DNA from: Flavobacteriales bacterium
GTDB lineage: Bacteria; Bacteroidota; Bacteroidia; Flavobacteriales_F; PHOS-HE28
Assembly (NCBI GenBank): GCA_024103275.1
Contig: JAGFIV010000130.1
Coordinates: 1-64,000, forward strand
Length of the DNA: 64,000 nucleotides
Reading direction: 5' to 3'
Part shown: positions 3,215 to 61,046 of the stretch, piece by piece
Layout of the letters: each line of letters begins with the position of its first letter
Position numbering within the stretch: position 1 is the first letter of the stretch
Made by a program: the position numbers and the translations under genes
The notes under the pieces: model-generated
Told to the model about the DNA's origin: nothing
Database searches by the model: none
What the model saw: the letters and a program-made list of their open reading frames with translations, nothing else

Positions 3215-3994
3215 CTATGGCACGAACCGATGGGTGCCGGACCGCGGGTCGATCACCACCCCGCTCCCTTCGAAGACCTCGGCCAGCCGCCCGGAGGCCA
3301 TGGCCTCCCCCGGTGCACCTTGCCAGGGGTCGGCCCCTGCGCGCAGCAGCACCAGGCGGTCGCACAGGTCCAAGGCGATCTGCAGGTCATGGGTGCTGAA
3401 CAGGACGGCCTTGCCCTCTTTGCGGGCGACATCCCGCAACATCCGCACGATGGCCGCCCTGTTGGGCAGGTCCAGGAAGGCGGTGGGCTCATCCAGCAGC
3501 AGCACCGGGGTGTCCTGTGCCAGCGCCCGGGCGATGAGGGCCTTCTGGCACTCGCCGTCGCTGCACGTGTCCAGCAGGCGGTGCCTCAGCGCCTCGGCAC
3601 CGGCCCGCTCCAGGGCGCGTTCCACGGCCTGGCGGTCGGCGGCCCGCCGCCTCCCCCATCGGTCGGTCCAGGGTTGGCGGCCCAGGCCCACCAGTGTCTC
3701 CACGTCCAGCATGCCCACGGGCGGCCGCCCGGTGAGCACCACGGCGATGTGCCGCGCCCGTTCCGCGGCGGTCATCGCGTGCATGTTTCTTCCATCGGCG
3801 AGCACCTGCCCGGCCATCGGCGGAAGCAGCCCTGCCAAGGTGCGCAGGAGCGTGCTCTTGCCCACGCCATTGGGCCCCAGCAGGGCCGTGAGCCCGCCGG
3901 GCCTGACCAGCAGGTTGACCTGGCGCAACAGGGCACGGGTACCGTGGCCCACGGCGAGGTTGCGGGCTTCCAAGGTACCGTGGCCCGCGGTCAT
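3215..3994 (-). CDS. FecE/BtuD-type ABC importer ATP-binding protein
   Basis: A 259-residue nucleotide-binding subunit of a siderophore, heme or cobalamin importer. Visible parts are Walker A GPNGVGKS near residue 40, an ABC signature in the form CSDGE near residue 143 (in place of the usual LSGGE), Walker B VLLLDEP near 162, and the switch histidine in STHD. Its ATG (3994) shares ATGA with the permease stop, which suggests translational coupling. ATG 4006 in the same frame is an alternative giving four more residues. No periplasmic binding protein or TonB receptor is encoded next to it, so the substrate cannot be assigned. Confidence 0.9.
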   Translation of the reverse strand: MTAGHGTLEARNLAVGHGTRALLRQVNLLVRPGGLTALLGPNGVGKSTLLRTLAGLLPPMAGQVLADGRNMHAMTAAERARHIAVVLTGRPPVGMLDVETLVGLGRQPWTDRWGRRRAADRQAVERALERAGAEALRHRLLDTCSDGECQKALIARALAQDTPVLLLDEPTAFLDLPNRAAIVRMLRDVARKEGKAVLFSTHDLQIALDLCDRLVLLRAGADPWQGAPGEAMASGRLAEVFEGSGVVIDPRSGTHRFVP

Positions 3995-8898: not shown

Positions 8899-9747
8899 AT
8901 GCCCGCATTACTTTCGTGCCACCGTAATCCGATCGCCGTGGTACGCATCCTGGGATCCAGTACGCCGCTCGGTGCGCAGCTGACGGAGGAACAGAAGCGG
9001 TCCTTTGCGGACAATGGCGCGATATTGTTCCCGGGCTTCATCAGCCGGGACACGGTGACGGAGATCTGGCGGGCCGTGGAGGACGTGCAGCGGCAATGGA
9101 TCGCCGAGGGGCGGGAGAAGGTGAACGGCATCCCGATCAAGTACGGCCTGGACGTGGACGGCCGGAGGATCGTGCAGCGTTTCGCGTTCGCCAACCATTT
9201 CAGCCCCGTGCTTGCCGAGTTCCTGAAGGACCCGCGGTTCAGCGAGCTGCTGGAGCTGGTGGGGCCCGGTGCGCGGCTGGGGATCAACGAAAAGGACGGC
9301 CTGGTGGTGAACCATTACGTGAACGTGGACGGCAGCCAATTCACGCAGATGGGCTGGCATACGGACAGTGTGCGCGACATCTTCCTGGGCAAGCGGATCC
9401 TGCCGATGCTGAACGTGGGGATCCACCTGGACGACCAGGACCCTCAAAACGGGGGCCTGCGCCTGTTGCCGGGCACGCACCGGCAAAGCACCTGGAACAT
9501 GCTGTTCCGCAAGAAGCCGTTCATGGACAATCGCCCGGACCCGCGGGAAGTGGCCTTCGACATCCACGCCGGCGACCTGACGGTACATGACGGCAGGTGC
9601 TGGCACCGGGTGGAAAGGAGCCGGCTCACGGGTGAAGCGAGCCGTCGCCGGGTGATGTACATCCCCATCATCGCGGGGAAATACACGCCGAAGTCGGAAA
9701 AGAGCCCGACCCCGCTGTACCATCATTTCCAGCATTTGGTGAAATAG
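8899..9747 (+). CDS. Phytanoyl-CoA dioxygenase (PhyH) family protein
   Basis: A 282-residue putative Fe(II)/2-oxoglutarate-dependent oxygenase. The iron ligands are visible as HxD in GWHTDSVRD (His154, Asp156) and a distal histidine in [11 protein letters not shown] (about 236), followed by arginines that could bind 2-oxoglutarate. The jelly-roll core includes [14 protein letters not shown], typical of the family. The substrate cannot be told. The GTG at 8938 is an alternative start, because a weak -7 box (TACTTTCG) lies between the two candidates. The following SDR gene starts 32 bases after the stop and may be co-transcribed. Confidence 0.85.
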
Positions 9748-10583: not shown

Positions 10584-11214
10584 GGCCCCACCGGGCCAGC
10601 AAGGCTCCGGCGGCCCACCAAGCCGCCCATGCGGCCGGCACGGCGGCCACCACATCCAAGGTCCAGTGTACATGCTGGGCCAACACCAGCAGGGCCACCG
10701 TGGCGGCACCCAAGGCGGCCAGCCACCGCACCCGGCCGGGCGGCACGAGCAATGCCATCAACACCAAGGTGGCCGTGTGGCCGGAGAAGAAGAGGTCCTT
10801 CAGGAACGGTGCGGCACCCGGGTAGAAAAGTTGCGTCACGGGGTCGACCAACGGAATGATCCCGTCGGGCGGCTCCAAGGTGAAGGAAGCCATGGCGGCC
10901 ATGCGCAGGAGCACCATCAGCAGGTAGGCGTACAGGCCTTGCAGCAGCCGCCACGGGTGCCTCGCCGCGGAAACGATCGCCACGGCGAGCACGGCATAGA
11001 GCACCCCGAAGGTGAGGCCGGAAACATCCATAGGTCCGAAGCGGTCCAACACCGGATCATGCAGGCGGCTGCCGGGCTTCGCCCCTATCCAGGCGAAAAA
11101 CCGCGGCAGCACGGCCACCAATGCCGAGCCCGCCAACACAGCCCCGAGGAAGGCGGTGCGGAAGGGCGGTGCCGCCCACGCCTGCCGCCATGCGGGAATG
11201 CCGGTGCTGCCCAT
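10558..11214 (-). CDS. PAP2-related / sphingomyelin-synthase-like membrane protein
   Basis: A 218-residue multi-pass membrane protein with about six helices. Near the C-terminus it has KDLFFSGHTATLVLMAL and then AQHVHWTLDVVAAVP. These carry the two catalytic histidines and the aspartate of the PAP2-like lipid phosphatase/phosphotransferase fold, in the form seen in sphingomyelin synthase relatives (PAP2_C). It probably acts on a membrane phospholipid or sphingolipid, which Bacteroidota can contain. ATG 11214 is preferred over 11259 because a weak -7 box (TACCTTGG) separates them. The coding end overlaps the SDR gene tail to tail. Confidence 0.8.
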   Translation of the reverse strand: MGSTGIPAWRQAWAAPPFRTAFLGAVLAGSALVAVLPRFFAWIGAKPGSRLHDPVLDRFGPMDVSGLTFGVLYAVLAVAIVSAARHPWRLLQGLYAYLLMVLLRMAAMASFTLEPPDGIIPLVDPVTQLFYPGAAPFLKDLFFSGHTATLVLMALLVPPGRVRWLAALGAATVALLVLAQHVHWTLDVVAAVPAAWAAWWAAGALLARWGLSASEEAA

Positions 11215-11324
11215 GCCTGTTCGCGCCCCAAGGTAGCCCGGACGCGGTGCTGCCCGCACGACATGCCCAGGACCATCGGCTCCCTTTCATGCGCCTGGCG
11301 GCGCATCCGATGAACGTGGTCGGC

Positions 11325-11442
11325 ACCACGGATGGACGCGGATATGCACCGATAAAGACACCTGCATGGCCAGCTGCGACGACATGGGCTACTCGTTCAA
11401 TGGAAACGGCCCATCTGCGTCCAACTGCGTGGATCCGTGGTT
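11325..11442. repeat. Inverted copies of an accacggat/gacgcgga repeat
   Basis: ACCACGGATGGACGCGGAT (11325-11343) is mirrored by a segment at 11414-11442 that contains GCGTCCA and GGATCCGTGGTT. The match is imperfect. A third relative lies at 63700-63737. The 11215-11565 gap between the PAP2-like and mannosyltransferase genes otherwise shows nothing recognisable. Confidence 0.6.
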
Positions 11443-11565
11443 CTCATTCAGGAAGTCCATGTGTCCGTGCGTCGTGCAAGGCGCAATGACCTTGGGGCAT
11501 GCCCGGCCAGGACATGCACGGCCGTGGATTACATTGCCCCCGTGTCCAGCACGCTGTTCCATGAG

Positions 11566-13077
11566 ATGGCGATCGCGGCCCGGCGGAGGCCGCTGTTCTG
11601 GCTTACGGTGATCGCCATGGTGCCCCGCCTGCTGGCGGCGTTCTTCTCGGGCGGCTACTATGCGCAGGATGACCACTTCCTGGTGATCGAGGCGGCCCAG
11701 AGCTGGGTGGACGGTTTCGACTACGACAACTGGTTGCCCTGGAACCAGGGCGGCCATCCGGCACCGACAGGGCACATGATGCTGTACCCGGGGCTGCATT
11801 ACCTCCTGTTCCTGTTGTGCAAGGCCCTGGGCATCACCGGGCCGTTGGCGAAGATGGTCATCGTGCGGGTGCTGCATGCCTTGTGGAGCCTGGTCACGGT
11901 GCGCATCGGCTACCGGATCGCGCTGCGGCTTTCCACCCCCGCAGTGGCGTGGCGCACGGGTCTTTTCCTGGCACTGTTCTTCTTCATGCCGTTCCTCTCC
12001 GTGCGGAACATGGTGGAAATGGTGAGCATCCCGCCGTTGATGCTCAGTGCTTGGTGGCTGATGCGCGATGGCGGCAAGCCTTCCGCGAAGGCGCTGCTCA
12101 TCGCCGGGCTTTTTGCCGGGCTGGCCGTGGACCTGCGGTTCCAGACGGTCGTCTTCGGCGGTGGCGTCGGCCTGGCCCTGCTGATGCAGCGGCAGGTGAA
12201 GGGAAGCCTGGTCTTTGGCGCGGGCCTGTTGCTGGCGGTGGCCGCGGTGAACGCCACGGTGGACCTGTTCCTCTGGGGCCGGCCTTTTGCCGAGATGTGG
12301 GAGTACGTGCGCTACAACCTGGCCAACAGCACCACCTACTTTGATCAACCGTGGTACAACTACCTGCTGGTCCTGGGCGGGATCTTCATCCCTCCCTTCT
12401 CCCTGTCGGTGCTCTTCGGTTTTTTCCGCAGACCGCGGCCCCTGCCGGTCTGGATGGGCGTGTTCTGCTTCCTGTTCCTCCATTCCCTTTTCCCCAACAA
12501 GCAGGAGCGCTTCATCCTGACCATTGTACCGCTGGTGCTGGTGCTGGGCCTCGCCGCGTGGGAGGACTTCCGGGCGCGCAGCGGGTGGTGGCGGCGGCAT
12601 CGGGGACTGTGGCGGGGCGTGCTGATCTGGACCTGGTGCCTGAACGCCCTGCTGCTGGTGCCGCTCACGTTCAGTTACAGCAAGCATGAGCGCGTGGAGG
12701 CGATGTTGCTGCTGCGGGACCGGCCCATCCGGGGCGTGATCATCGAGGACACCGCCGAGCAGGACCCGCCGATGCTGCCGCTCTTCTACCTGGGCCGGTG
12801 GGGCATCACGCAGCAGATCCTCACCGACCCGGACGCGGATCCACGGGCCTTCGTGCAGGAGGTCGGCCCGGACCACCGGCCCGACGTGGTGATGTTCATC
12901 GGAACGGAGGACCTGGATGCCCGCGTGCGGCACATGGAGGAAGGCACCGGCCCGCTGGAGCTGATCGGGCGGGCGCGCCCCGGCCTGCTGGACCGCGTGA
13001 TGCACCGGCTGAACCCGGTGAACCGCAACGTGACGATCACCCTTTACGGCATCCCTGGGGACAAGGGCGGCCACTGA
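11566..13077 (+). CDS. GT-C membrane glycosyltransferase, GT22 (Alg9-like) mannosyltransferase family
   Basis: A 503-residue integral membrane protein with around ten helices. The first periplasmic loop carries the acidic pair YYAQDDHFL, at the position of the catalytic HPDE-type motif. It is followed by GHMMLYPGLHYLLF. A later loop has SLFPNKQERFILTIVPL, which resembles the HKEERF motif of the GT22/PIG-B/Alg9 family. Such enzymes move a mannose-type sugar from a polyprenyl phosphate donor on the outer face of the inner membrane. The acceptor is unknown. ATG 11566 was chosen; a GTG at 11542 just after TACATTGC is possible. The wider frame to 11437 crosses repeats. Confidence 0.75.
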   Translation: MAIAARRRPLFWLTVIAMVPRLLAAFFSGGYYAQDDHFLVIEAAQSWVDGFDYDNWLPWNQGGHPAPTGHMMLYPGLHYLLFLLCKALGITGPLAKMVIVRVLHALWSLVTVRIGYRIALRLSTPAVAWRTGLFLALFFFMPFLSVRNMVEMVSIPPLMLSAWWLMRDGGKPSAKALLIAGLFAGLAVDLRFQTVVFGGGVGLALLMQRQVKGSLVFGAGLLLAVAAVNATVDLFLWGRPFAEMWEYVRYNLANSTTYFDQPWYNYLLVLGGIFIPPFSLSVLFGFFRRPRPLPVWMGVFCFLFLHSLFPNKQERFILTIVPLVLVLGLAAWEDFRARSGWWRRHRGLWRGVLIWTWCLNALLLVPLTFSYSKHERVEAMLLLRDRPIRGVIIEDTAEQDPPMLPLFYLGRWGITQQILTDPDADPRAFVQEVGPDHRPDVVMFIGTEDLDARVRHMEEGTGPLELIGRARPGLLDRVMHRLNPVNRNVTITLYGIPGDKGGH

Positions 13078-13112: not shown

Positions 13113-15221
13113 CTACTTCGCGATGATCACGAAGGTCGTGCGCCTGTTCTCGGCGCGCCCGGCCTCGGTGTCGTTGGAGGCGATGGGCTTGGTGGGGCCG
13201 TAGCCCTGGCTGGTGAGGCGCTGTGCGCCGATGCCATGCGCGGTGAGGTACGCCACCACCGCCCCTGCCCGGTTGTTGCTCAGCACCATGTTGCTTTCCA
13301 TGTCGCCGACATTGTCGGTGTGGCCCTGCACCTCGATGCGCACCCTGGGGTTCTCCTTCAGGAAATCGATCAATTCATCCAGGATGTACCGGCTGGCACC
13401 AGTGATCTTCGAACTGTTGGTGGCAAAGCGCACATCGTTGACCTTGTAGCTGCGCCCCACCTCCACCTTTTCCAGTTTCATGTCCACTTCCGCCACGCCG
13501 CCCCGCGCGGTATCCTCCACGCTGAATGACCGGCTGTCGAACACGTGGTCGGCCTTCTTCACCGTGACGATCACGTCGCTTCCCGCCTTCAGCCGCACCA
13601 CGGCTGCGTACCGGCCGTCCTCCGCATCCACCTTCACCAATTCGGTCTTGCGCGTGTCCATGTAGGTGATGGACACGGTGGCGTCCTTCACCGCGTTGCC
13701 CTTTTCGTCCTTCACCACGCCCTTGGTGATGAGGATGTCCTCGGGCCGCGCCTCCACCGGCAGGTCGAAGCCGTAGATGTCCAGGCCGCCGGCGCCGCCC
13801 TTGAACCGGCTGCTGGCGAAGTATGCCGTGCGCCCGTCGGCGCTCACCACCAGCCCGTGTTCATCCTGCGGGGTGTTGATGGGATTGCCCAGGTTTTTAG
13901 GTTGCGTCCAGGTGCCGTCGTCGTTCAGGCGGCTGAAGAACAGGTCGTAACCCCCAATGCCGCGGTGGCCCGCGCCCACATCCTCATTGCCACGCTCGTC
14001 ACGGGGCGGCCGGGCCGCGAAATAGAGGGTGCGGCTGTCGGAGTGCATGAAGGGTGCCTTCTCGTCGCCATCGGTGTTGATCGGTGCCGGCAACGGCTTG
14101 GCGGGGCTCCATTCCCCTTTGTCGTTGCGCGTGCTGCTGTAAATGTCCATGCCCCTGCTGCCGGGCCTGAGCGCCGCGAAGTACAGCGTGCGCCCGTCGG
14201 TGCCCAACGAAGGTTGGCTCTCCCAGCCATCCTCGGTGTTGATGTTGGGCCCCAGGTTCACCAGCTCGCCCCAGCGGAACCGCTGCTGGCCGGTCCCGAA
14301 CTCCATGTCGGTGGTGTAGTGGGTGCTGTAGAGGTCGCAGTTCTTGTAGTTGGCCGACACCGGCTTGCAGATCGTGACGAAGAGTTCCTTGTTGTTCAGG
14401 CTCACGGTGACGCCGCCATAGCTGTCGCCCTCGTTGAAGGGAGGAGGCAGGGGTTTTCCACGGTCGAAGTCGTCCTTGGGCGAAGGGCGCCTGGCCTCGG
14501 AGAGTTCCTCGATCTCGCGCGGGAAGCGGTCCCCCAAGGCTTGGTGCTTGCTGACGCGGGTGAAGAAGATGATCTCGTTGTCGGGCGAGAACATGGGCAG
14601 GTATTCATCGGCCGGCGTGCTCACGCCTTTGAGCGGATGGGGATTGAACTCCCGGTGGTCCTTGTAGAAATCGCGATAGAAGGCCAGTTCGGGCATCAGG
14701 CGCTCCACCTCCAGGATGCGGGGAGCCGTTGCCTGCTCCTTCATCGAGGGGTCGTCGGCGGGGAAATCGAGGAACTTGTGGAAGGCCTGTTCCGCATCCG
14801 CAAAGCGGTCCTGGGCATAATACATGGACCCGAGGAAATAGTACATGGCGGCATGGTATTCCGGGCATCGCGTGCGCAGGTCCTCCAGGTAGTTGATGCC
14901 GGGCCCAAAGCCGCCGGCACCGGCGCGTGCCCGTTCAAACGCGCTCTCGCCGACGCGGAACAGGCATTCGGCACAATCGGGCCACTCGGCGGCCAGGGCC
15001 TTCAGCTTTTGGTGGCGATCACCCGGGCTGCGCATGGCCATGGCCTCGTTCAACTGCTTCAGCAGCTTTTTGTCCGTGGGCTTGGCGCAGGGCCCGCCCT
15101 CCCCGTCCTGCGCGCGGACGCCGGCCAGGCCGGTGGTGGTGGTGATGAGCACCAACAAGAGCACCCGGGCCCAGGCAGGCCAGGCCCCGCTCCGTCCATG
15201 CTCCGATCTCCGCATGTGCAT
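13113..15221 (-). CDS. OmpA-family protein with PD40 (WD40-like) beta-propeller
   Basis: A 702-residue envelope protein. It begins with a signal peptide (to about residue 37), then a TPR-like region. A PD40 beta-propeller follows, with recurring S-x-D-x-R-T-L-Y-F-A-A phrases (TDGRTLYFAALRPGS, SDSRTLYFAA, ADGRTAYFASSRFKGG). Next is a carboxypeptidase-regulatory-like segment (about 510-590), and at the C-terminus an OmpA domain with VQGHTDNVGDMESNMVLSNN that should bind peptidoglycan. Such proteins link the outer membrane to the wall in Bacteroidota, and some relatives belong to secretion or gliding machinery. Its ATG overlaps the upstream AsmA stop as TGATG. Confidence 0.88.
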   Translation of the reverse strand: MHMRRSEHGRSGAWPAWARVLLLVLITTTTGLAGVRAQDGEGGPCAKPTDKKLLKQLNEAMAMRSPGDRHQKLKALAAEWPDCAECLFRVGESAFERARAGAGGFGPGINYLEDLRTRCPEYHAAMYYFLGSMYYAQDRFADAEQAFHKFLDFPADDPSMKEQATAPRILEVERLMPELAFYRDFYKDHREFNPHPLKGVSTPADEYLPMFSPDNEIIFFTRVSKHQALGDRFPREIEELSEARRPSPKDDFDRGKPLPPPFNEGDSYGGVTVSLNNKELFVTICKPVSANYKNCDLYSTHYTTDMEFGTGQQRFRWGELVNLGPNINTEDGWESQPSLGTDGRTLYFAALRPGSRGMDIYSSTRNDKGEWSPAKPLPAPINTDGDEKAPFMHSDSRTLYFAARPPRDERGNEDVGAGHRGIGGYDLFFSRLNDDGTWTQPKNLGNPINTPQDEHGLVVSADGRTAYFASSRFKGGAGGLDIYGFDLPVEARPEDILITKGVVKDEKGNAVKDATVSITYMDTRKTELVKVDAEDGRYAAVVRLKAGSDVIVTVKKADHVFDSRSFSVEDTARGGVAEVDMKLEKVEVGRSYKVNDVRFATNSSKITGASRYILDELIDFLKENPRVRIEVQGHTDNVGDMESNMVLSNNRAGAVVAYLTAHGIGAQRLTSQGYGPTKPIASNDTEAGRAENRRTTFVIIAK

Positions 15222-51466: not shown

Positions 51467-52102
51467 TCAGTTTGCGTGGACGTACAACAACCGTCCCTCC
51501 AACAGGCCGATCACTTGCGGGAGCACTTCGGGCGCCACGGCGGGGCAGCCGAAGCTGCGCCCCAGCCGGCCGTGGCGTGCAATGAATCCCGCGCCGACAT
51601 AGTCGGCGCCGTGGATGATGATCTCGCGCCGCAGGGCCGCCGAGTTCAGGCCCGGGTCAAGTCCCTCCAGCAACAGCGCATCGCCGTGCTTGGGGCTGCT
51701 GATCTTCCCGCCCACCCGGTACAGCCCCTTGCTGGTCTGCAGCGACCCGCTGACGTTGCTTACGCGCTCACAGTACAGGCCACCGGAGTTCTTGCCGTGG
51801 GCCACCCAGGTGCGCAACAACAGTTTGCGTGCCTCCAGGTCCACCACGAAAAAGCGCTGTTCGGTGGACGGGCGGGTCATGTCGGCAATGGCGATCACGC
51901 CGGCCTGGATCCCATGCTTCGCGCAACCCGCAAGTGCCGCATGGAACGCCTCCTCCTCCAGCACGCCGTCCAGCCCGCATGCATGGTAGAGCGTACCGGC
52001 CTCCGGGTCCGCGCTTTCTCCGGGTATCGCCGGGGCCGTAGCCCGCGGTGCCATTTTCCACAATGGGGCACAGGCGATCAGGAAGGCAACCAGCAATTGC
52101 AT
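51467..52102 (-). CDS. YkuD_2-type murein L,D-transpeptidase
   Basis: A 211-residue exported protein of the murein L,D-transpeptidase catalytic domain family (YkuD_2). It has a hydrophobic N-terminus, then VVDLEARKLLLRTWVAHGKN, the histidine in IIHGADYV and the nucleophile in GRSFGCPAV (about Cys186). In Bacteroidota this family is thought to trim or cross-link wall peptides. The start at 52102 lies seven bases after a perfect TAGTTTTG promoter box, and the larger transpeptidase gene follows in the same operon. Confidence 0.88.
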   Translation of the reverse strand: MQLLVAFLIACAPLWKMAPRATAPAIPGESADPEAGTLYHACGLDGVLEEEAFHAALAGCAKHGIQAGVIAIADMTRPSTEQRFFVVDLEARKLLLRTWVAHGKNSGGLYCERVSNVSGSLQTSKGLYRVGGKISSPKHGDALLLEGLDPGLNSAALRREIIIHGADYVGAGFIARHGRLGRSFGCPAVAPEVLPQVIGLLEGRLLYVHAN

Positions 52103-52109
52103 GGGCGTG

Positions 52110-52117
52110 CAAAACTA
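52110..52117 (-). promoter_or_regulatory. -7 promoter box for the L,D-transpeptidase operon
   Basis: TAGTTTTG on the minus strand matches TAnnTTTG exactly and lies seven bases from ATG 52102. Confidence 0.6.
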
Positions 52118-52194
52118 ACGTCGGTTACAAGCCATCCGGCCTACGACGGACCGCCCCCCGGGTTCCGCACATCCGATTGCCCTTGGCGTCCCCT

Positions 52195-52303
52195 ATTCCG
52201 CCAGCACCTGCAACAGATGCACATCAAACCACTCGGGCTGCTCCACGTTGCCGGCGTGGCCCGCATGCGGGATCACCAGGAAATGGTCCGCCGGCAGGTG
52301 GTT
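52195..52303 (+). repeat. 109-bp direct repeat, left copy
   Basis: The offset to the right copy is a constant 2002 bases with four mismatches and no gaps. It flanks the lower-GC T9SS gene on its upstream side. Confidence 0.9.
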
Positions 52304-52335
52304 GTGGTAATGGAGATGGTGATAAGGTGATCGCC
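52195..52335 (-). pseudogene. Relic of the 3' end of an alpha/beta hydrolase gene
   Basis: Positions 52195-52303 match 54197-54305, the 3' end of the intact hydrolase gene, at 105 of 109 positions in the same orientation. The relic still encodes the last residues, including HAGHAGNVEQPEWF, and ends in TAG rather than TGA. A 16-base gap and a weaker match (52312-52335 against 54330-54353) follow, after which similarity is lost. No start or catalytic serine region remains. With the intact copy it brackets the T9SS protein gene. The rest of the 52103-52489 gap shows nothing else. Confidence 0.85.
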
Positions 52336-52489
52336 TTGACTAAGAATATAACCATTTGCCTTATCGAAGATGGCCTTTATGGAGAAGCTCAAGTATCCGT
52401 TTAGGGGAATGGGGAGGATCGTGGACAAAACGGGGGCGCGGGAGGCAACCTTGGGTCCAGGGGGGCGTCTATTTCCCAACTGCAATGCT

Positions 52490-54052
52490 ATGGAGCCATT
52501 TGGAATATTCCGGATTTTCTTGATTGCCACTCTCCTTCCCTCCTTTCTTTATGGGCAGGACACGGCATGGTTCCACTTGTATGGGAACACGAATGCCCGT
52601 TGCAGCAGTTTGCAGCGTTCCTCCTCCGGGGACCTGTTCATGGCAGGAGACATTCTCAATGAACACCCGTTCGATGGCCAAATACCTGAATGGTACGGAT
52701 ACAACGATGGATATATTGGACGTACGGATCCCACAGGCAATATGCGTTGGATCCATTCAATCGGGGCATATAGCGCCGATTTTACATGGGCTCTCACGGA
52801 AACCGGGGGGCGGATCACCATGCTCGGGGAAGTGACCAATTTTGGAGGAACCTCAAACATCTATTATAACGGCACAGCGACCCCTATTACAGCTGATGGT
52901 AAATACGTCATGCAGGTTGATACTGCTGGCAACCAACTGTGGCTTCAGCAACCTTATCTCGGTGGTAGAAGCATTGAATCGGATGGAGAAGGCAACATTT
53001 ATTATTTCGTCATTGAAAATGGGATGAGGCAATGCAGGAAGGTGGATCTCAATGGCAATATGCTTGAGCAATTTGAGGTCACTGACTTGGTTGAATGTAA
53101 CGGATTGGCAATCAGTCCCACAGGTGACATCTGGGTGGCCGGCAGTACGGGAATGTCAATTCCAGGATCGATCACATGGGCCGGGCAAACCTATGTCATG
53201 CCATCGGGGGACTACGACATTTTCCTGGCGAAATTCAATCCGACTGGCGTTCCGCAATTCGCCACCAGATTTCGTAGTGCCGGGAACGACCTCCTACATG
53301 GTTTGGTTGTCGCTGCCGACGGAACTGTCCACATGTCCGGCTATTTCGGTGGGATCGTGGAACAGGACGGTGATACGCTCAGCGGTGATGGCGATCGTTG
53401 GTTCCTGGCTTCGTTCAATTCTGATGGGAACTTGGTCGCACTTGACGATACGTCCTTCAGAACGAAGCCAAGCATTGGCCACACACTTGGCCAACTCAGG
53501 GTGAACGACGCAGGGGAGGTATTTGCCGGCTTAAACTTTAGGGATACGCTATTCCAAGGTATGGATACAATATTGCAGCCCCCATTCAGCTCTGGGGGAG
53601 TTCTAGCCAAATGGAACACCATGGGGCAACTGAGCTGGTACCGGTCTTTCGGGACGGATGCATTGGGAAGGGTGAATACGACCGTCACGCTCGGCTCTGT
53701 GGTACAGGACAGCGTTTTCATCGGTGGACGTGCACAATACGGGGCCTACACGGCCCTGGTGATTGATACTACGTACGTGCCTCTTACCACTTCGGTCCCT
53801 GCCAATGATGCTATTGTGAATATGAATTGGAAAGTGTTCCCCAACCCCGCGAAGAACTACCTGACCCTGAACAATATTGGACCAGGAACACGCGTGCAAT
53901 TGATCGATCCAATGGGACACATTTTGCTCGAACGCATATTAAGCGACGGGAAGGAGATCATTGATCTAGCCGGTGTTCCGTCGGGTTGCTATATAGTGCG
54001 GTTGCGAAGTGCGGCCGGTACCGCCTCTAAACGAGTGATCGTGCTTCAGTGA
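52490..54052 (+). CDS. T9SS-secreted beta-propeller-like protein
   Basis: A 520-residue exported protein. The signal peptide is IFRIFLIATLLPSFLYGQ. The body contains repeating segments such as GDIWVAGSTG, GTVHMSGYFGG and GEVFAGLNFRD, followed by phrases like FLAKFNPTG and FLASFNSDG. This is the pattern of SBBP/YVTN-like propeller blades. The C-terminal 75 residues (WKVFPNPAKNYLTL ... GCYIVRL ... SKRVIVLQ) are a T9SS type A sorting domain. Codon use and base composition are visibly less GC-rich than in neighbouring genes, suggesting acquisition. ATG 52490 was chosen for its signal peptide; 52370 is the open-frame limit. The role is unknown. Confidence 0.82.
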   Translation: MEPFGIFRIFLIATLLPSFLYGQDTAWFHLYGNTNARCSSLQRSSSGDLFMAGDILNEHPFDGQIPEWYGYNDGYIGRTDPTGNMRWIHSIGAYSADFTWALTETGGRITMLGEVTNFGGTSNIYYNGTATPITADGKYVMQVDTAGNQLWLQQPYLGGRSIESDGEGNIYYFVIENGMRQCRKVDLNGNMLEQFEVTDLVECNGLAISPTGDIWVAGSTGMSIPGSITWAGQTYVMPSGDYDIFLAKFNPTGVPQFATRFRSAGNDLLHGLVVAADGTVHMSGYFGGIVEQDGDTLSGDGDRWFLASFNSDGNLVALDDTSFRTKPSIGHTLGQLRVNDAGEVFAGLNFRDTLFQGMDTILQPPFSSGGVLAKWNTMGQLSWYRSFGTDALGRVNTTVTLGSVVQDSVFIGGRAQYGAYTALVIDTTYVPLTTSVPANDAIVNMNWKVFPNPAKNYLTLNNIGPGTRVQLIDPMGHILLERILSDGKEIIDLAGVPSGCYIVRLRSAAGTASKRVIVLQ

Positions 54053-54194
54053 GCAATTGGATGGCCACCTCCCGGTCCGTGGGCTCCTTGAGGCATCCCT
54101 AAAAGTTTGGTGAATGTAGTAATGAGCGAATCCCTTCAGGTCTCGAGGCCCAAGCTCAACAATTATGGAAGGCTGGATCCTTTGAGAAAGCACC

Positions 54195-55142
54195 TCATTC
54201 CGCCAGCACCTGCAGCAGATGCGCATCAAACCACTCGGGCTGCTCCACATTGCCGGCGTGGCCCGCGTGCGGGATCACCAGGAAATGGTCCGCCGGCAGG
54301 TGGTTCCGGGCCACGATGGCCCGGCCCACGGAGATCGGGATCAGGCGGTCGCCCTCGCCCCAGAACACATACACCGGCATCAGCCAGTGGTAGGTCTTCT
54401 GCTCGTATTGCGGCGCGCGGTCCAGCAGGTCTTGCAACAGTGAGGAGTAGTTCGGCATCTTGTCCTTCATGGCCTCGTATAGCTGGCGCAGCGCGAAGCG
54501 CGGCACCTTCCTCGGCTTGTAGGTGATCAATGAGATCAGGCGCTTCTGCCCTTCCATGTCCTTGGGCTCAAAGAGGTCCTTGATGCCCGCAGCCCCCACG
54601 GACCGCGCCACGCTGTCGGCCATGGCGGGCGTGTAGTCGCTCGCGGGCCCGTCGTAGATCACCAGCTTCTTCACGAGCTCCGGGTGCTGCTCGGCGAAGT
54701 TGGCCGCGATGGCGCCGCCGTAGGAAGCGCCCACCAGGTTCACCGGTTGTTCGATCTTGAGGCTGTCCAGGATCTGGTCCAGGTGTGCGGTCTGCACGTT
54801 CACACTGTTGCCGGTCCACCGCGCGGTGCTGTGGCCATGGCCGATCAGGTCGGGGATGATCAGGTCGTAGTGGGCGGACAGGGCCTTCACGTTCTTGGCC
54901 CACATCAGGCTTTGGCTGGTGATGCCGTGGACCAGCATCAGCTTCGGGCGGCCGTTGTCCGGTGCGCCGGGCGGGACGCTGCTCCACGTGTAGTGCGGCC
55001 CCGCGGCATCGGTGAAGGTGTAGGCCTTCAGCCCGGCCTTCTCCATGGCCTTGGTGTCGCGGCGCACGCCCATGCGCACCACGTTGCACGAGCTCAGGGC
55101 GGCGATGAGCAGCAGAAGGATCGGAAGTCGGCGCAGGATCAT
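54195..55142 (-). CDS. Alpha/beta hydrolase lipoprotein
   Basis: A 315-residue alpha/beta-fold hydrolase. The lipobox ALSSC (Cys19) predicts a lipid anchor. The oxyanion region is LVHGITSQSLMW, the nucleophile elbow is GASYGG (Ser140), and the histidine lies in IPHAGHAGNVEQPEWF near the C-terminus. It may be an esterase, lipase or C-C hydrolase; the substrate is unknown. A weak -7 box (TACTTTTC) precedes it. Its last 109 coding bases recur at 52195-52303 on the far side of the T9SS gene. Confidence 0.9.
   Translation of the reverse strand: MILRRLPILLLLIAALSSCNVVRMGVRRDTKAMEKAGLKAYTFTDAAGPHYTWSSVPPGAPDNGRPKLMLVHGITSQSLMWAKNVKALSAHYDLIIPDLIGHGHSTARWTGNSVNVQTAHLDQILDSLKIEQPVNLVGASYGGAIAANFAEQHPELVKKLVIYDGPASDYTPAMADSVARSVGAAGIKDLFEPKDMEGQKRLISLITYKPRKVPRFALRQLYEAMKDKMPNYSSLLQDLLDRAPQYEQKTYHWLMPVYVFWGEGDRLIPISVGRAIVARNHLPADHFLVIPHAGHAGNVEQPEWFDAHLLQVLAE
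54197..54305 (+). repeat. 109-bp direct repeat, right copy
   Basis: This copy is inside the intact hydrolase gene and codes for its C-terminal 36 or so residues. It matches the left copy at 105 of 109 bases. Confidence 0.9.
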
Positions 55143-56699: not shown

Positions 56700-56706
56700 G
56701 GGCAGG

Positions 56707-56714
56707 CAAAGGTG
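56707..56714 (-). promoter_or_regulatory. Probable -7 box for the MFS gene
   Basis: CACCTTTG on the minus strand matches TAnnTTTG at seven of eight positions, seven bases from the ATG. Confidence 0.45.
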
Positions 56715-56904
56715 CCGAAACGCGCTCTGTGCGCCGGAAAATTGATCAGCGTCGTCGCCCCTACTGTATTAGCTCGATGGATAGGTTGTTAGGCCAATTA
56801 CAATAGCCTCCGTGAATTGGAAGCTTCAGTCCAAGGGAAGACTATGTCGGATCAGTACTTCGGAACGGAGGACTGGAAATGAGAGTCGCTCTACGCCACT
56901 GTAA

Positions 56905-57312
56905 TCACTGTTTCACTATCCGTTGGACATAGGTCCCAATACCTGAAAAAAGGCTCAACATGTACACCCCCGCCGGTTGTTTGGAAAGGTCGATGACCTG
57001 TTTCTCACCTTTTAGCTTGCCATCAAGTACTGTTTGGCCAATCGGGTTCGTCACGGTATACCGGTCACCTGATGCCGTACGCAGCCAAATCAACGTAAAT
57101 ACACCATCTCCTGGATTGGGCGTTACCGTGCAAGGGCAATGGATCAGATCCAGGTCCGGTGTTGCCGAGATTGACGGCGTGGCTTCAGCAGAAGCGTATC
57201 CCTGGCCGGGACCTCCGCTGAACTGGGCCTGAGCCGATGAGGCTATACAACATACCAGACCCAATGCCATGGTGGCGCGGGCAAGATGGATGTCGAAATG
57301 CACGTGGTCCAT
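56905..57312 (-). CDS. Minimal T9SS protein: signal peptide plus sorting domain
   Basis: Only 135 residues. A signal peptide (MALGLVCCIASSAQAQ) is followed by about 30 residues with no recognisable domain, then a T9SS type A sorting domain (CTVTPNPGDGVFTL, PAGVYMLSLFSG, QRIVKQ at the end). A passenger domain is essentially absent. It could be the remnant of a larger secreted protein or a small surface peptide. Composition is less GC-rich than the surrounding core genes. It is followed on the same strand by two more secreted-protein genes. Confidence 0.75.
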   Translation of the reverse strand: MDHVHFDIHLARATMALGLVCCIASSAQAQFSGGPGQGYASAEATPSISATPDLDLIHCPCTVTPNPGDGVFTLIWLRTASGDRYTVTNPIGQTVLDGKLKGEKQVIDLSKQPAGVYMLSLFSGIGTYVQRIVKQ

Positions 57313-57389
57313 TTGCTGACGGGTTTGCAGTTCATAGAAAGCTGTTTGGGCAGGTCCGGAATCCTTGCAAATCTTTTAACTGTGGGCCA

Positions 57390-58976
57390 TCATCTGACGC
57401 CACGCGCACCAGTCCACAAATCATGTAGATAGTAGGGTGGGGAGAGATCAGCATAAATCCGGTCTGAGAGGGGTTCCAGATCACCCATGTAGACATCATA
57501 GTCCCCCCCACGGTAACAGAAACCTTCAACGGTCGGCCAGTTCTCGACATCGGCATTACCACCGGGACTCAAGGTGCCGTTGCCCAAGACACCTGTGAAG
57601 GCGCGTCCCGGGGCAATGCTCACAGAAATCACGCGATTCTCAAGGTTGCCGGTCAGGTCCAATACGCCATAGTACCCGGCACCGGACTCAGTACGTGTAT
57701 TTCCAGGCGTGGCGGTAATACCTACACGGGCAGGGCCCCACACCGATGTGTTTCTCACATTATACAGGTCGTAGTCAAAGCTGACCACGTTACCTGTTCC
57801 GGTTTCATCAATCATCCCCGCATTGCTGAGGTTTCCCCAGATCGGTGTGAATGAGGTGGTACCCCAAGCAAATTCATTCGGCACCGGCATGGCAGTCCCC
57901 CTCCCGGCCTTCTCGTATTCCAGCTCCGTCATGGGCCGCAGGCCGCACCAATCCAAATAGGCGGCCTGATCGGACCAACTCAGGAAATTGCAGGCCACCC
58001 ATTGCCCGTCGTCATCCTCATTGCCAATGCCATTTCCATTGGCATCGCAATAAAAGGTGATGGGGGAATAGCCGTCGATCACAGAATCGCAGCATATGAA
58101 TTGCCGGATGCTGCTGTTCACGCTGTCGGCCATCACGTAACGGTGGGCCACGTAAGTAATACCAGCAGAGAGATCAGCAGCCGTTCGGTTGTTCTGCTGG
58201 ACCCTGGTCAGGCAATTCAAGAAGTCGACATACTGGCCTTGTGATACAAGGTCCTTCATCATATAAAAGCCCGAATAGCCCTTCGGAAAAGCTAAGGGAA
58301 GTGTGGCCGTTTCGATGGCGGATGTGGCCCAAAGGTGGCCCATGGTGCTGGACATGTTAAGTGCGTCTTCCGAGCTGATCAAGAATGGGTTATTGGTGTT
58401 GCCATCCTTGAAGTGGACGGTCTCAGTGCCGCCACTGCCTACGTAAAAGGCCCCTTCCGGTATCCACACCATTTCAATCGCACACACTTTCACAGTGGTA
58501 ATTTCACCGTAGGTGATGCTGTTCTGGGAATAGTTCCAGCGCAGTTCCACACCATCGGAGGAGAAAGCTCCACTTCCATCACCACTACGGTATACAAAGA
58601 CACCCACTGCCCAGTTATTGGCAGCATCATACGGCGCGCCGGGTGTGAGAAGGCCATTAACCAAGCTGGCCGAAGTGCCGATTCCGGGCACATGGTCGGT
58701 CTCACTGCCCAAGCAGGCATGGTGCCACACCCCTGAAGCGTCCTTGTACTTTATGAAGATCCAGGCGGCATCCCAATTGGACGGGGGGCTGCTAGTGCGC
58801 CAACTGTTTTCCCAGCTAAGGTTAAAGCGTACGTTCACATAGCCCTCGATGCTATTGTTGTTCACCAACTGGGGGGCAGAGACCGTAATGTTATTGGCGT
58901 GGCTCGGAACGGACAAGGTCACGAAGGCCAAGCCCAAAAGCGCAACCGCGCGGCTGGGAGGTGAAATGTGTTTCAT
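57390..58976 (-). CDS. Exported protein with formylglycine-generating-enzyme-like (SUMF1) domain
   Basis: A 528-residue exported protein with signal peptide ALLGLAFVTLSVPSHA. Residues 30-165 look like a beta-sandwich domain (NVRFNLSWENSWR ... GVFVYRSGDG). From about 165 to the end it has the FGE-sulfatase/SUMF1 pattern: EMVWIPEGAFYVGS, CGLRPMTELEYEKAGRG, YYGVLDLTGNLENRV and a closing TGARGVR. True FGE oxidises a cysteine in sulfatases, but many bacterial relatives bind other targets, and the catalytic cysteines are not evident here. There is no T9SS sorting domain at the C-terminus. Lower GC than the neighbouring core genes. Confidence 0.8.
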   Translation of the reverse strand: MKHISPPSRAVALLGLAFVTLSVPSHANNITVSAPQLVNNNSIEGYVNVRFNLSWENSWRTSSPPSNWDAAWIFIKYKDASGVWHHACLGSETDHVPGIGTSASLVNGLLTPGAPYDAANNWAVGVFVYRSGDGSGAFSSDGVELRWNYSQNSITYGEITTVKVCAIEMVWIPEGAFYVGSGGTETVHFKDGNTNNPFLISSEDALNMSSTMGHLWATSAIETATLPLAFPKGYSGFYMMKDLVSQGQYVDFLNCLTRVQQNNRTAADLSAGITYVAHRYVMADSVNSSIRQFICCDSVIDGYSPITFYCDANGNGIGNEDDDGQWVACNFLSWSDQAAYLDWCGLRPMTELEYEKAGRGTAMPVPNEFAWGTTSFTPIWGNLSNAGMIDETGTGNVVSFDYDLYNVRNTSVWGPARVGITATPGNTRTESGAGYYGVLDLTGNLENRVISVSIAPGRAFTGVLGNGTLSPGGNADVENWPTVEGFCYRGGDYDVYMGDLEPLSDRIYADLSPPYYLHDLWTGARGVR

Positions 58977-59031
58977 GACCGGGAGATTTTAAGTGTCGGA
59001 ACAGGCCATGATCATGGCCGGGGAGTTTGGC

Positions 59032-59883
59032 TTACCTTACCACCACCGGCTGGCTGCTCACGGCGTTGGTACTGATGATTCGGAGCACGTAGTTGCCTGG
59101 GGCCAATTTGCCATCCAAATGAATGGCCAGCGGTTGGTCGGTACCCATGGCATGCTGCTCAGTGAGCACGTTGCGGCCGGCCAGGTCCAAAAACTCCAGG
59201 AGCACCATTCCCTTGAGGCCGCCATCACCGATGATGAGGTCACCCTTGGTTGGATTGGGATACACGGCCGGTGTTGCACCATTGCTCTCTTTCACGCTGG
59301 AGCTCTCTTCGATATTCACCGTGTAATCTTCCGTCTCGCCGTACGCGAGGAACATGCAGGGGTCCATATTGCCGGTTCCCGGAGTTTGTGCCCCGACCAT
59401 CGAGATGCGGATCCTGAGCCTGGTCGGTCCCGCAAGGGCATCAGCCGGAACCTGGAAGGTAAGGGAGGCATGTTCGGTCGTTGTGCCTTGAACCAGTTCA
59501 CCGAGCACCTCGGCCAGTTTTTCCCCGACTTGCCAAATGCTGTCCCCGTTGTAGTCGATCCATGCGGCGAAGACATCCTCCTGGTTCGTCCCCTCCCCGA
59601 TCGGCCCGTCAACGGAGATCGTGTAAGAACCGTTCTGTTGCAGTGTCGTGCTTTGTGAGGTGAAATCCGAATAGCCGGACGGGTCTGATGAACTTGATGT
59701 CTGGTGAATGTCACCCAGTGTGAACTGGGAGATGTAATTCCCATCGGACGTGTACGGGGGAGCGAGTGTACAGTACTGTGCTTCAACTGCGCTACCCTGT
59801 AACAACAGGGCGGCTGGAACAAACAATGCCTTCCGCCATGATTTCCGGACCTGCCGGGAAAGTGAAGTGGGGTTGTTTTTCAT
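59032..59883 (-). CDS. GEVED-domain protein with T9SS sorting domain
   Basis: A 283-residue exported protein. The signal peptide spans about residues 17-36 (KALFVPAALLLQGSAVEAQ). The mature part opens YCTLAPPYTSDGNYISQFTLG. A GEVED-type module follows, with FAAWIDYNGDSIWQVGEKL and the closing AYGETEDYTVNI. A type A sorting domain ends the protein (AVYPNPTKGDLIIG ... GNYVLRII ... QPVVVR). Such modules are found on large adhesins and enzymes; this one stands alone and its binding partner is unknown. ATG 59883 is preferred over 59910. Confidence 0.83.
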   Translation of the reverse strand: MKNNPTSLSRQVRKSWRKALFVPAALLLQGSAVEAQYCTLAPPYTSDGNYISQFTLGDIHQTSSSSDPSGYSDFTSQSTTLQQNGSYTISVDGPIGEGTNQEDVFAAWIDYNGDSIWQVGEKLAEVLGELVQGTTTEHASLTFQVPADALAGPTRLRIRISMVGAQTPGTGNMDPCMFLAYGETEDYTVNIEESSSVKESNGATPAVYPNPTKGDLIIGDGGLKGMVLLEFLDLAGRNVLTEQHAMGTDQPLAIHLDGKLAPGNYVLRIISTNAVSSQPVVVR

Positions 59884-60473
59884 CGTGCTTGCGTTTAGGG
59901 TTGATCGCAATACGCAAAAACACGATCGAATGTACCATCACTTCAATCGAAAGACAATACATGCAATCGGGTATTTTTCAACCACGGAGCACCTTGTGAT
60001 TATTGCAATTTCAACACCATGATCAATAGCGGACGATCAACGTCGTCACTCGCTTCAATTGATTCCATATCACTCATTTTTCCCCGCCCAGCCTGCCTCA
60101 AAAGGCATATTACCGGCGGGGTGGAGGCATGCTTGGTCACCCTTTTCCCACGTGCCTTTAGTGGAAGGCCAGATCCGAATAAGTGGTGCATCCCTTGGTA
60201 TTGCGGATGCTTCGGGAAACCTGGGGGCTCCGATACGCCCCCACGACGTGGCCCTACAAATGGTCCATATCATGCACCGGTCTTCCCGATCTGCGCGAAC
60301 GGTTGGAATGGACCCATGCCGGTCTTCATTCCAACAAGCGGTTAAACTATCGCACAGGTACCGTGTATGCCTAAAGGGGTGTTCCAATGATCCATACCAC
60401 TGTGGCAGATGCAATGCCCTGGCCGCTGTGCATTGTGGGCGCCAATACCTTCCTGCCCCCATTCATCAATCCG
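59884..60473. other. 590-bp gap without a supported gene
   Basis: The only structure seen is a hairpin, TGGGGGC (60222-60228) with GCCCCCA (60237-60243), with no T tract after it. Short open frames cross the gap, but none has a recognisable domain or a credible start. Composition is lower in GC than the core genes, as in the secreted-protein block to the left. Confidence 0.5.
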
Positions 60474-61046
60474 ATGGCCACCGCGTTGCATCTTTCGCAA
60501 ACCTTTGCCAAGGAGAATTGGAGCCATCAAGTCGTGCCGACCGGTGATTTCGAGCCATGCTCCTTCACGCAGTGCAACATCTCCCACTGCGATCTTTCAC
60601 GGGGCAAGTTCGCGGAATGCACGTTCACCGGCTGCGACCTGTCGATGATCAAGTTGACCGAGGCGGCCCTGCGCGATGTGACATTCAAGGAATGCAAGCT
60701 TCTCGGCGTGGACTTCAGCCGGTGCAAGGAGATGCTCTTCGGCGTAGCGTTCGATCACTGCATACTTGACCATGCCGTGTTCCACAAGCGGAAGATGAAC
60801 GGTACGCGCTTCCTCCGCTGTTCCCTGAAGGGCGTGGACTTTGAAGAGGCCTACTTGGAGAAAGCGGTTTTCGATCAGTGCGACCTGGATCAAGCGTTCT
60901 TCGTGAACAGCCAGCTCCAAAAGGCGGACTTCCGCACTGCCAGGTACATCGCCCTGGACCCGGACCGCAACAAGGTGGAGGGTGCCCGCTTCTCCGTGGA
61001 AGGCGCGCTGGGCTTGCTGGGTAAGTATGGGCTGGAGAACGGGTGA
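60474..61046 (+). CDS. Pentapeptide-repeat protein (Qnr/YjbI-like)
   Basis: A 190-residue soluble protein built of A(D/N)LxF-type pentapeptide repeats, for example CDLSRGKFAECTFTGCDLSM, LLGVDFSRC, LKGVDFEEAYLEKAVF and LQKADFRTARY. It has the two-part layout seen in Qnr-like proteins and ends DRNKVEGARFSVEGALGLLG. Pentapeptide proteins form a square right-handed helix. Some mimic DNA and protect gyrase; others have unknown roles. ATG 60474 was chosen because the extra 29 residues of the longer frame are not repeat-like. No neighbour suggests a function. Confidence 0.87.
   Translation: MATALHLSQTFAKENWSHQVVPTGDFEPCSFTQCNISHCDLSRGKFAECTFTGCDLSMIKLTEAALRDVTFKECKLLGVDFSRCKEMLFGVAFDHCILDHAVFHKRKMNGTRFLRCSLKGVDFEEAYLEKAVFDQCDLDQAFFVNSQLQKADFRTARYIALDPDRNKVEGARFSVEGALGLLGKYGLENG

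Follow-up and report, generated by a model that had tools for sequence, protein, structure and literature searches.

A low-GC T9SS cargo gene enclosed by a duplicated hydrolase gene end in a Flavobacteriales genome: probable scar of a one-sided homologous insertion

The window analyzed here is a 64-kb stretch of DNA from a Flavobacteriales genome (G000). An alpha/beta hydrolase gene and a YkuD_2 L,D-transpeptidase gene, both on the minus strand, are separated by an insert with a single recognized gene, which is predicted to encode a secreted T9SS cargo protein (Table 1). The hydrolase gene has 65.3% GC and a GC3 of 91%. The insert is flanked by a 109-bp direct repeat (52195-52303 and 54197-54305, start-to-start distance 2002) with 105 of 109 identical positions (96%). 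This pair is the sole two-copy dispersed repeat of such length and identity in the window, the remaining long repeat families being tandem or located inside genes, and since the self-match has an E-value of ∼1e-47 (self-comparison, L090), the repeat is not a chance match. A preliminary description had read one copy as the live 3' end of the hydrolase gene and the other as a relic ending in TAG. The repeat and both readings were borne out: the live copy is the end of a minus-strand ORF with the stop codon TGA, and the relic keeps the last codons of the same gene in frame.

Table 1. Features of the window locus and gene-end duplications in related genomes
Feature	Location	Strand	Remarks
Alpha/beta hydrolase gene	54195..55142	-	315 aa; lipoprotein-like N-terminus; Pfam Abhydrolase_1 7.7e-30; live gene
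Live 3' end copy of repeat	54195..54305	-	Hydrolase end; stop TGA; PHAGH motif
Insert	52304..54196	+	1.89 kb; one recognized gene; 51.5% GC
T9SS cargo gene	52490..54052	+	Signal peptide-like N-terminus; predicted beta-propeller; Por_Secre_tail
Relic of hydrolase end	52193..52303	-	Last 37 hydrolase codons in frame; own stop TAG; 105/109 identical to live end
YkuD_2 L,D-transpeptidase gene	51467..52102	-	Pfam PF13645 3.1e-47
M91-peptidase-type gene end, 64 bp	G048		Surrounds a 222-aa gene
T9SS tail gene end, 48 bp	G059 (3.86-Mb contig)		Surrounds a 1.64-kb T9SS gene
acs 3' end relic, 182 bp, 87%	G010:C1 (L133) 10913-11766		Beside the live gene; one-contig genome
227-bp repeat	G043		End of Eco57I/ISP-type restriction-modification gene plus ∼100 bp beyond; flanks closest homologue of the window gene

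The live terminus reads ...LAE-TGA and the relic terminus ...LAE-TAG; the shared block stops within the stop codon and no alignment was found further on. The left edge of the relic is abrupt and lies mid-gene, at codon 279 (junction 52303/52304). From live end to relic the codon changes are CAC to CAT, AAT to AAC, GCG to GTG, CTG to TTG and TGA to TAG, and three of the four substitutions within the 109-bp repeat are C to T in the relic. Five changed codons (4-5 differences) are too few to place the divergence of the copies before or after their joining. The 37 codons of the relic encode no working enzyme by themselves. Judging from the fold family, the PHAGH motif in the duplicated part should carry the catalytic His, and the live copy would therefore be needed for activity.

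One way to arrive at the same final order is a tandem duplication of the hydrolase 3' end together with a T9SS gene that already adjoined it, followed by loss of the second T9SS copy; the excess of C to T changes in the relic resembles the decay of an exact copy. For such a history, however, a deletion would have to begin precisely where the relic's stop codon lies. The sequence at 52102-52194 shows no remnant of a second T9SS copy, the relic has a different yet valid stop, and in the related genome G010 (see below) the two copies of a gene end diverged under selection before they were joined. The partly decayed tandem duplication, one of the two origins suggested in the preliminary description, is thus not favored, and we regard it as unlikely.

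The T9SS ORF is the only long ORF with a recognized domain between the repeat copies. Its longest form spans 52370-54052 on the plus strand, with the ATG at 52490 as the likely start; the N-terminus read from there, MEPFGIFRIFLIATLLPSFLYGQ, looks signal-peptide-like by eye. By its profile matches to Por_Secre_tail (TIGR04183, 2.2e-11, 43.5 bits against a curated cut-off of 23) and to PF18962 (2e-8), the C-terminus is a T9SS type A sorting domain. Matches of the gene body to Pfam SBBP and NHL stayed below cut-off, as did that to NF047494 (7.8e-8). An AlphaFold2 model of the protein reached a mean pLDDT of only 66, and at this confidence Foldseek matched it to propeller structures, the best being CylK (7roo, E-value 1.8e-17, TMq 0.56); a beta-propeller is predicted for the body of the protein.

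The gene has 51.4% GC, against 63.7 ± 4.4% for 212 other genes of the genome, and a GC3 of 56% against the 91% of the hydrolase gene; its GC is the lowest among 11 T9SS-like genes sampled from the genome with a regex. The homologues in two related genomes, G043 and G048, have 62.5% GC, so the low GC belongs to the window copy and not to the family. Both the composition and the gene content agree with the preliminary description, which had noted a lone secreted-protein gene of lower GC between the repeat copies, with no integrase inside. A phage or plasmid origin of the gene was rejected: a search of phage sequences gave no match, and the sole match among plasmid sequences was an SBBP protein with 23% identity, encoded by a plasmid of Hymenobacter.

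The T9SS gene is carried by 3 of 45 genus genomes, namely the window's genome, G043 (∼60% aa identity) and G048 (38%). In a class sample of 395 genomes, scanned at a threshold of 1e-40, it was found in two, the window's genome and G043; G048 is not listed at that level. Among the relatives examined, the nearest hydrolase is that of G002 ('BAC5' Flavobacteriales MAG, JAHDVX010000005), with 90% nt identity. As the preliminary description had anticipated for a relative that lacks the insert, the G002 locus has a single hydrolase end (stop TAG) and no T9SS gene; another gene lies downstream. In G022 the YkuD_2 gene is found downstream of the hydrolase gene, on the same strand and 6.6 kb away, and the hydrolase gene and the YkuD_2-YkuD-TolC-RND block have the order and orientation seen in the window. 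The YkuD_2 gene is probably the original downstream neighbor of the hydrolase. A clean empty site, with the hydrolase gene directly followed by YkuD_2, was seen in none of the genomes examined. The window insert and the G043 insert were compared for common flanks and have none, DNA similarity starting only inside the gene. Upstream of the hydrolase, a second block of lower GC with T9SS-tail genes lies at 56700-60500 of the window; it encodes a short tail protein, a sulfatase-modifying-factor-like protein and a GEVED-type protein, and is apparently missing at that place in G002 and G022.

Self-comparison of the hydrolase loci of 12 relatives gave no second gene-end duplication at this hydrolase, so the site is not a hotspot; a search for the same hydrolase end around different cargo had been proposed earlier, and these loci hold no second insertion. 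This result bears on the other origin suggested in the preliminary description, an element that integrates at the 3' end of a gene and carries a replacement end. Here this would mean site-specific integration of a mobile element between att-type repeats, followed by loss of its integrase. The anatomy of gene-end replacement does resemble att sites in gene 3' ends. However, no recombinase ORF, tRNA or Rfam feature was found in the insert or at the insertion site, the hydrolase end is not otherwise occupied in the 12 loci, and the phage and plasmid searches gave nothing beyond the remote SBBP protein. The parallel cases described below lie at unrelated genes (acs, an M91 peptidase, a T9SS tail gene and an RM gene) and therefore share no common att sequence, and the G043 homologue has the opposite orientation relative to its neighbor. 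Integration of a site-specific element is hardly probable.

The layout is well supported as that of a foreign single gene inserted behind the hydrolase gene, with a spare copy of the hydrolase end on the far side. We concluded that the locus is probably the scar of a one-sided homologous insertion, that is, a single crossover of the Campbell type or homology-facilitated illegitimate recombination (HFIR). A direct repeat that matches the anchor is present on one side (109 bp, 96%, hydrolase 3' end), and the insert is foreign-looking and patchy in distribution (3 of 45 genus genomes; GC 51% vs. 64%). In such an insertion, a DNA fragment of a close relative, carrying the hydrolase end followed by the T9SS gene, would have entered the cell and undergone a single RecA-type crossover inside the hydrolase 3' end; the fragment would have been either circularized (Campbell-type) or linear, with its other end joined illegitimately (HFIR). 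The product would begin with the live gene and continue with DNA from downstream of the donor's hydrolase, including the T9SS gene; after a ligation junction at 52303/52304, which forms the edge of the relic, would come the second hydrolase end and the old downstream YkuD_2 gene. The repeat would stop at the stop codon because the neighbors of donor and recipient differ past it. The hydrolase gene is left intact, so the insertion would be tolerated.

The donor, the crossover and the entry route are the parts of this scheme that we infer. The donor order, hydrolase followed by T9SS gene, is absent from the 45 genus genomes and from the genome-contigs scan; the true donor strain may lie outside the sampled genomes, so that a confirmation is lacking but the scheme is not contradicted. 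The 4-5 differences between the window copies, with their C to T excess, would also fit an exact duplicate that later decayed. The window's genome has a gene of the ComEC family, which is widespread and not diagnostic of uptake. Natural transformation has been described in some Flavobacteriaceae, for example in Riemerella. Of the interpretation in the preliminary description, the insertion of a foreign single gene with duplication of its neighbor's 3' end stands, given the G002 locus and the narrow distribution of the gene, and site-specific integration of an element is not supported.

One-sided insertions of this kind are known from experiments. In an E. coli lacZ assay, single crossovers by partly degraded and recircularized DNA gave duplications of the lacZ end of 109-950 bp and were ∼10 times more common than HFIR (PMC3240628). 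The crossover at a gene end left a partial gene-end duplication around foreign DNA there, like the 109-bp duplication seen in the window; in contrast, a plasmid and selection were used there, whereas the window's copies differ by ∼4% and the donor is only inferred. HFIR in S. pneumoniae, A. baylyi and P. stutzeri likewise combines homology at one end with an illegitimate join at the other and needs no integrase, but its classical product deletes recipient DNA, whereas recipient DNA is duplicated in the window. An HFIR-like, anchor-based mechanism has been proposed for the displacement of T6SS effector-immunity modules and for orphan Rhs 3' regions in Vibrio (PMC5361080). There, too, a module anchored by upstream homology displaces the old downstream gene end; the displaced end is variable and immunity genes are kept, whereas in the window the displaced end is almost the same as the live one and the cargo has no relation to the anchor gene.

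Self-comparisons showed that the layout of a live gene end, an insert and a relic running to its own stop codon recurs in G048, G059 and G010 (Table 1). The same kind of scar thus occurs in at least four related species, in G043 in extended form. Recurrence elsewhere, like the anatomy, the foreign composition and the patchy distribution of the window insert, is a matter of direct observation. All gene-end relics remain in frame. They are rare in the survey of ∼1.5 Mb of genus sequence and 0.4 Mb of Bacteroidia control sequence. In G010 the insert between the acs ends is 490 bp long and holds no recognized gene. Of the 23 differences between the two acs copies, 16 fall at third codon positions; 22 codons are changed, 17 of them synonymously. 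The divergence therefore took place under purifying selection before joining: each of two lineages kept a working gene, and the copies were brought together only later, which points to a donor fragment with an orthologous gene end.

The parallel cases also bear on a TSD-like long duplication, in which replication template switching or double-strand-break repair would have placed a 109-bp target duplication around 1.9 kb of unrelated DNA, without a hydrolase end from a donor. The C to T changes in the relic are consistent with it, as is a 61-bp intergenic repeat around another T9SS gene of the window's genome (G000:C33), where no gene end is involved. However, the boundary lies at the stop codon in four of the five gene-end cases (the exception is G043, ∼100 bp past the stop), which is not expected from random breakpoints, and the third-position bias in G010 also argues against it. 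We consider such a duplication distinctly unlikely. An assembly artifact, with strain variants joined chimerically in a metagenome-type draft, was considered as well: the host draft consists of 137 contigs, so that a single locus could in principle be misassembled, and the repeat is at most about as long as a short read. The left edge of the relic is nevertheless a unique junction for which the repeat does not account, and the single contig of G010 and the 3.86-Mb contig of G059 carry comparable structures, so assembly error cannot explain the whole class; an artifact is very unlikely.

The G043 case is more complex. A 143-bp repeat in turn lies on both sides of the restriction-modification gene, and the block is missing from the relative G042. 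At 4646-10193 of L074 (G043:C64) lies a nested array, x-y-T9SS-w-x-y-RM gene-w-x, with repeats of 54-227 bp, which is absent from G042. The segments upstream (w) and downstream (y) are nearly the same for the T9SS gene and the RM gene, a pattern that looks like the exchange of one gene body for another within a duplicated unit. An integron-like att-site reading of the x, w and y repeats was dropped, since a 42-bp motif with which y begins is, by eye, a fragment of a LysM/peptidoglycan-hydrolase-type neighbor gene. Neighboring T9SS paralogues (L074 10415-12049 and L115 293-1829) have a near-identical 5' coding segment of 128-136 bp (95-97%) and then diverge, which suggests gene conversion, or an exchange of the gene body while the N-terminus stays fixed.

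Further repeats were also observed. In the window's genome, the T9SS gene on C33 (L176, 12345-14000) lies between the 61-bp direct repeats (12021-12081 and 14011-14071, 95%), one copy of which is located just upstream of an acid-phosphatase-like gene. On G000:C1 (L169), a 90-bp direct repeat (3502-3591 and 9539-9628, 97%) has its copies 6 kb apart with several genes between them and begins with the short palindrome GCGTAGC-CTAA-GCTACG. In G008 (L126, G008:C13, 1-10300) a Cas9-like ORF of 1365 aa lies beside a repeat array (GTTGTGAAAGGCTTTCAGGTCAAGATCTTTGACGAGCTGTGACACC), as identified by eye.

With 140 matches to the T9SS type A sorting domain, the 3.58-Mb genome of the window has a very large cargo repertoire. 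When the window and the two homology-selected loci (L074 and L075) are excluded, repeat pairs whose insert measures 1 kb or more surround 2 of 94 T9SS genes, vs. 0 of 1741 other ORFs (Fisher p 0.0026). The 1-kb condition was set after the data were seen, and the link to T9SS cargo is therefore a lead, not a result; when it is dropped, six short ORFs in repeat-rich stretches of G004 qualify too and p becomes 0.059. It is very unlikely that the genus has a gene-capture process biased to T9SS cargo, instead of random one-sided recombination, in which cargo genes travel one at a time as cassettes and are preferentially joined to the 3' ends of unrelated genes, leaving gene-end duplications.

The mechanism is already known, and the locus is a tidy natural example of it; the scar recurs across the genus. 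Gene-end relics are a readable record of the entry of single genes without a mobile element. Together with its parallels, the window locus suggests that plain one-sided recombination may supply part of the large and variable T9SS cargo repertoire of these bacteria.
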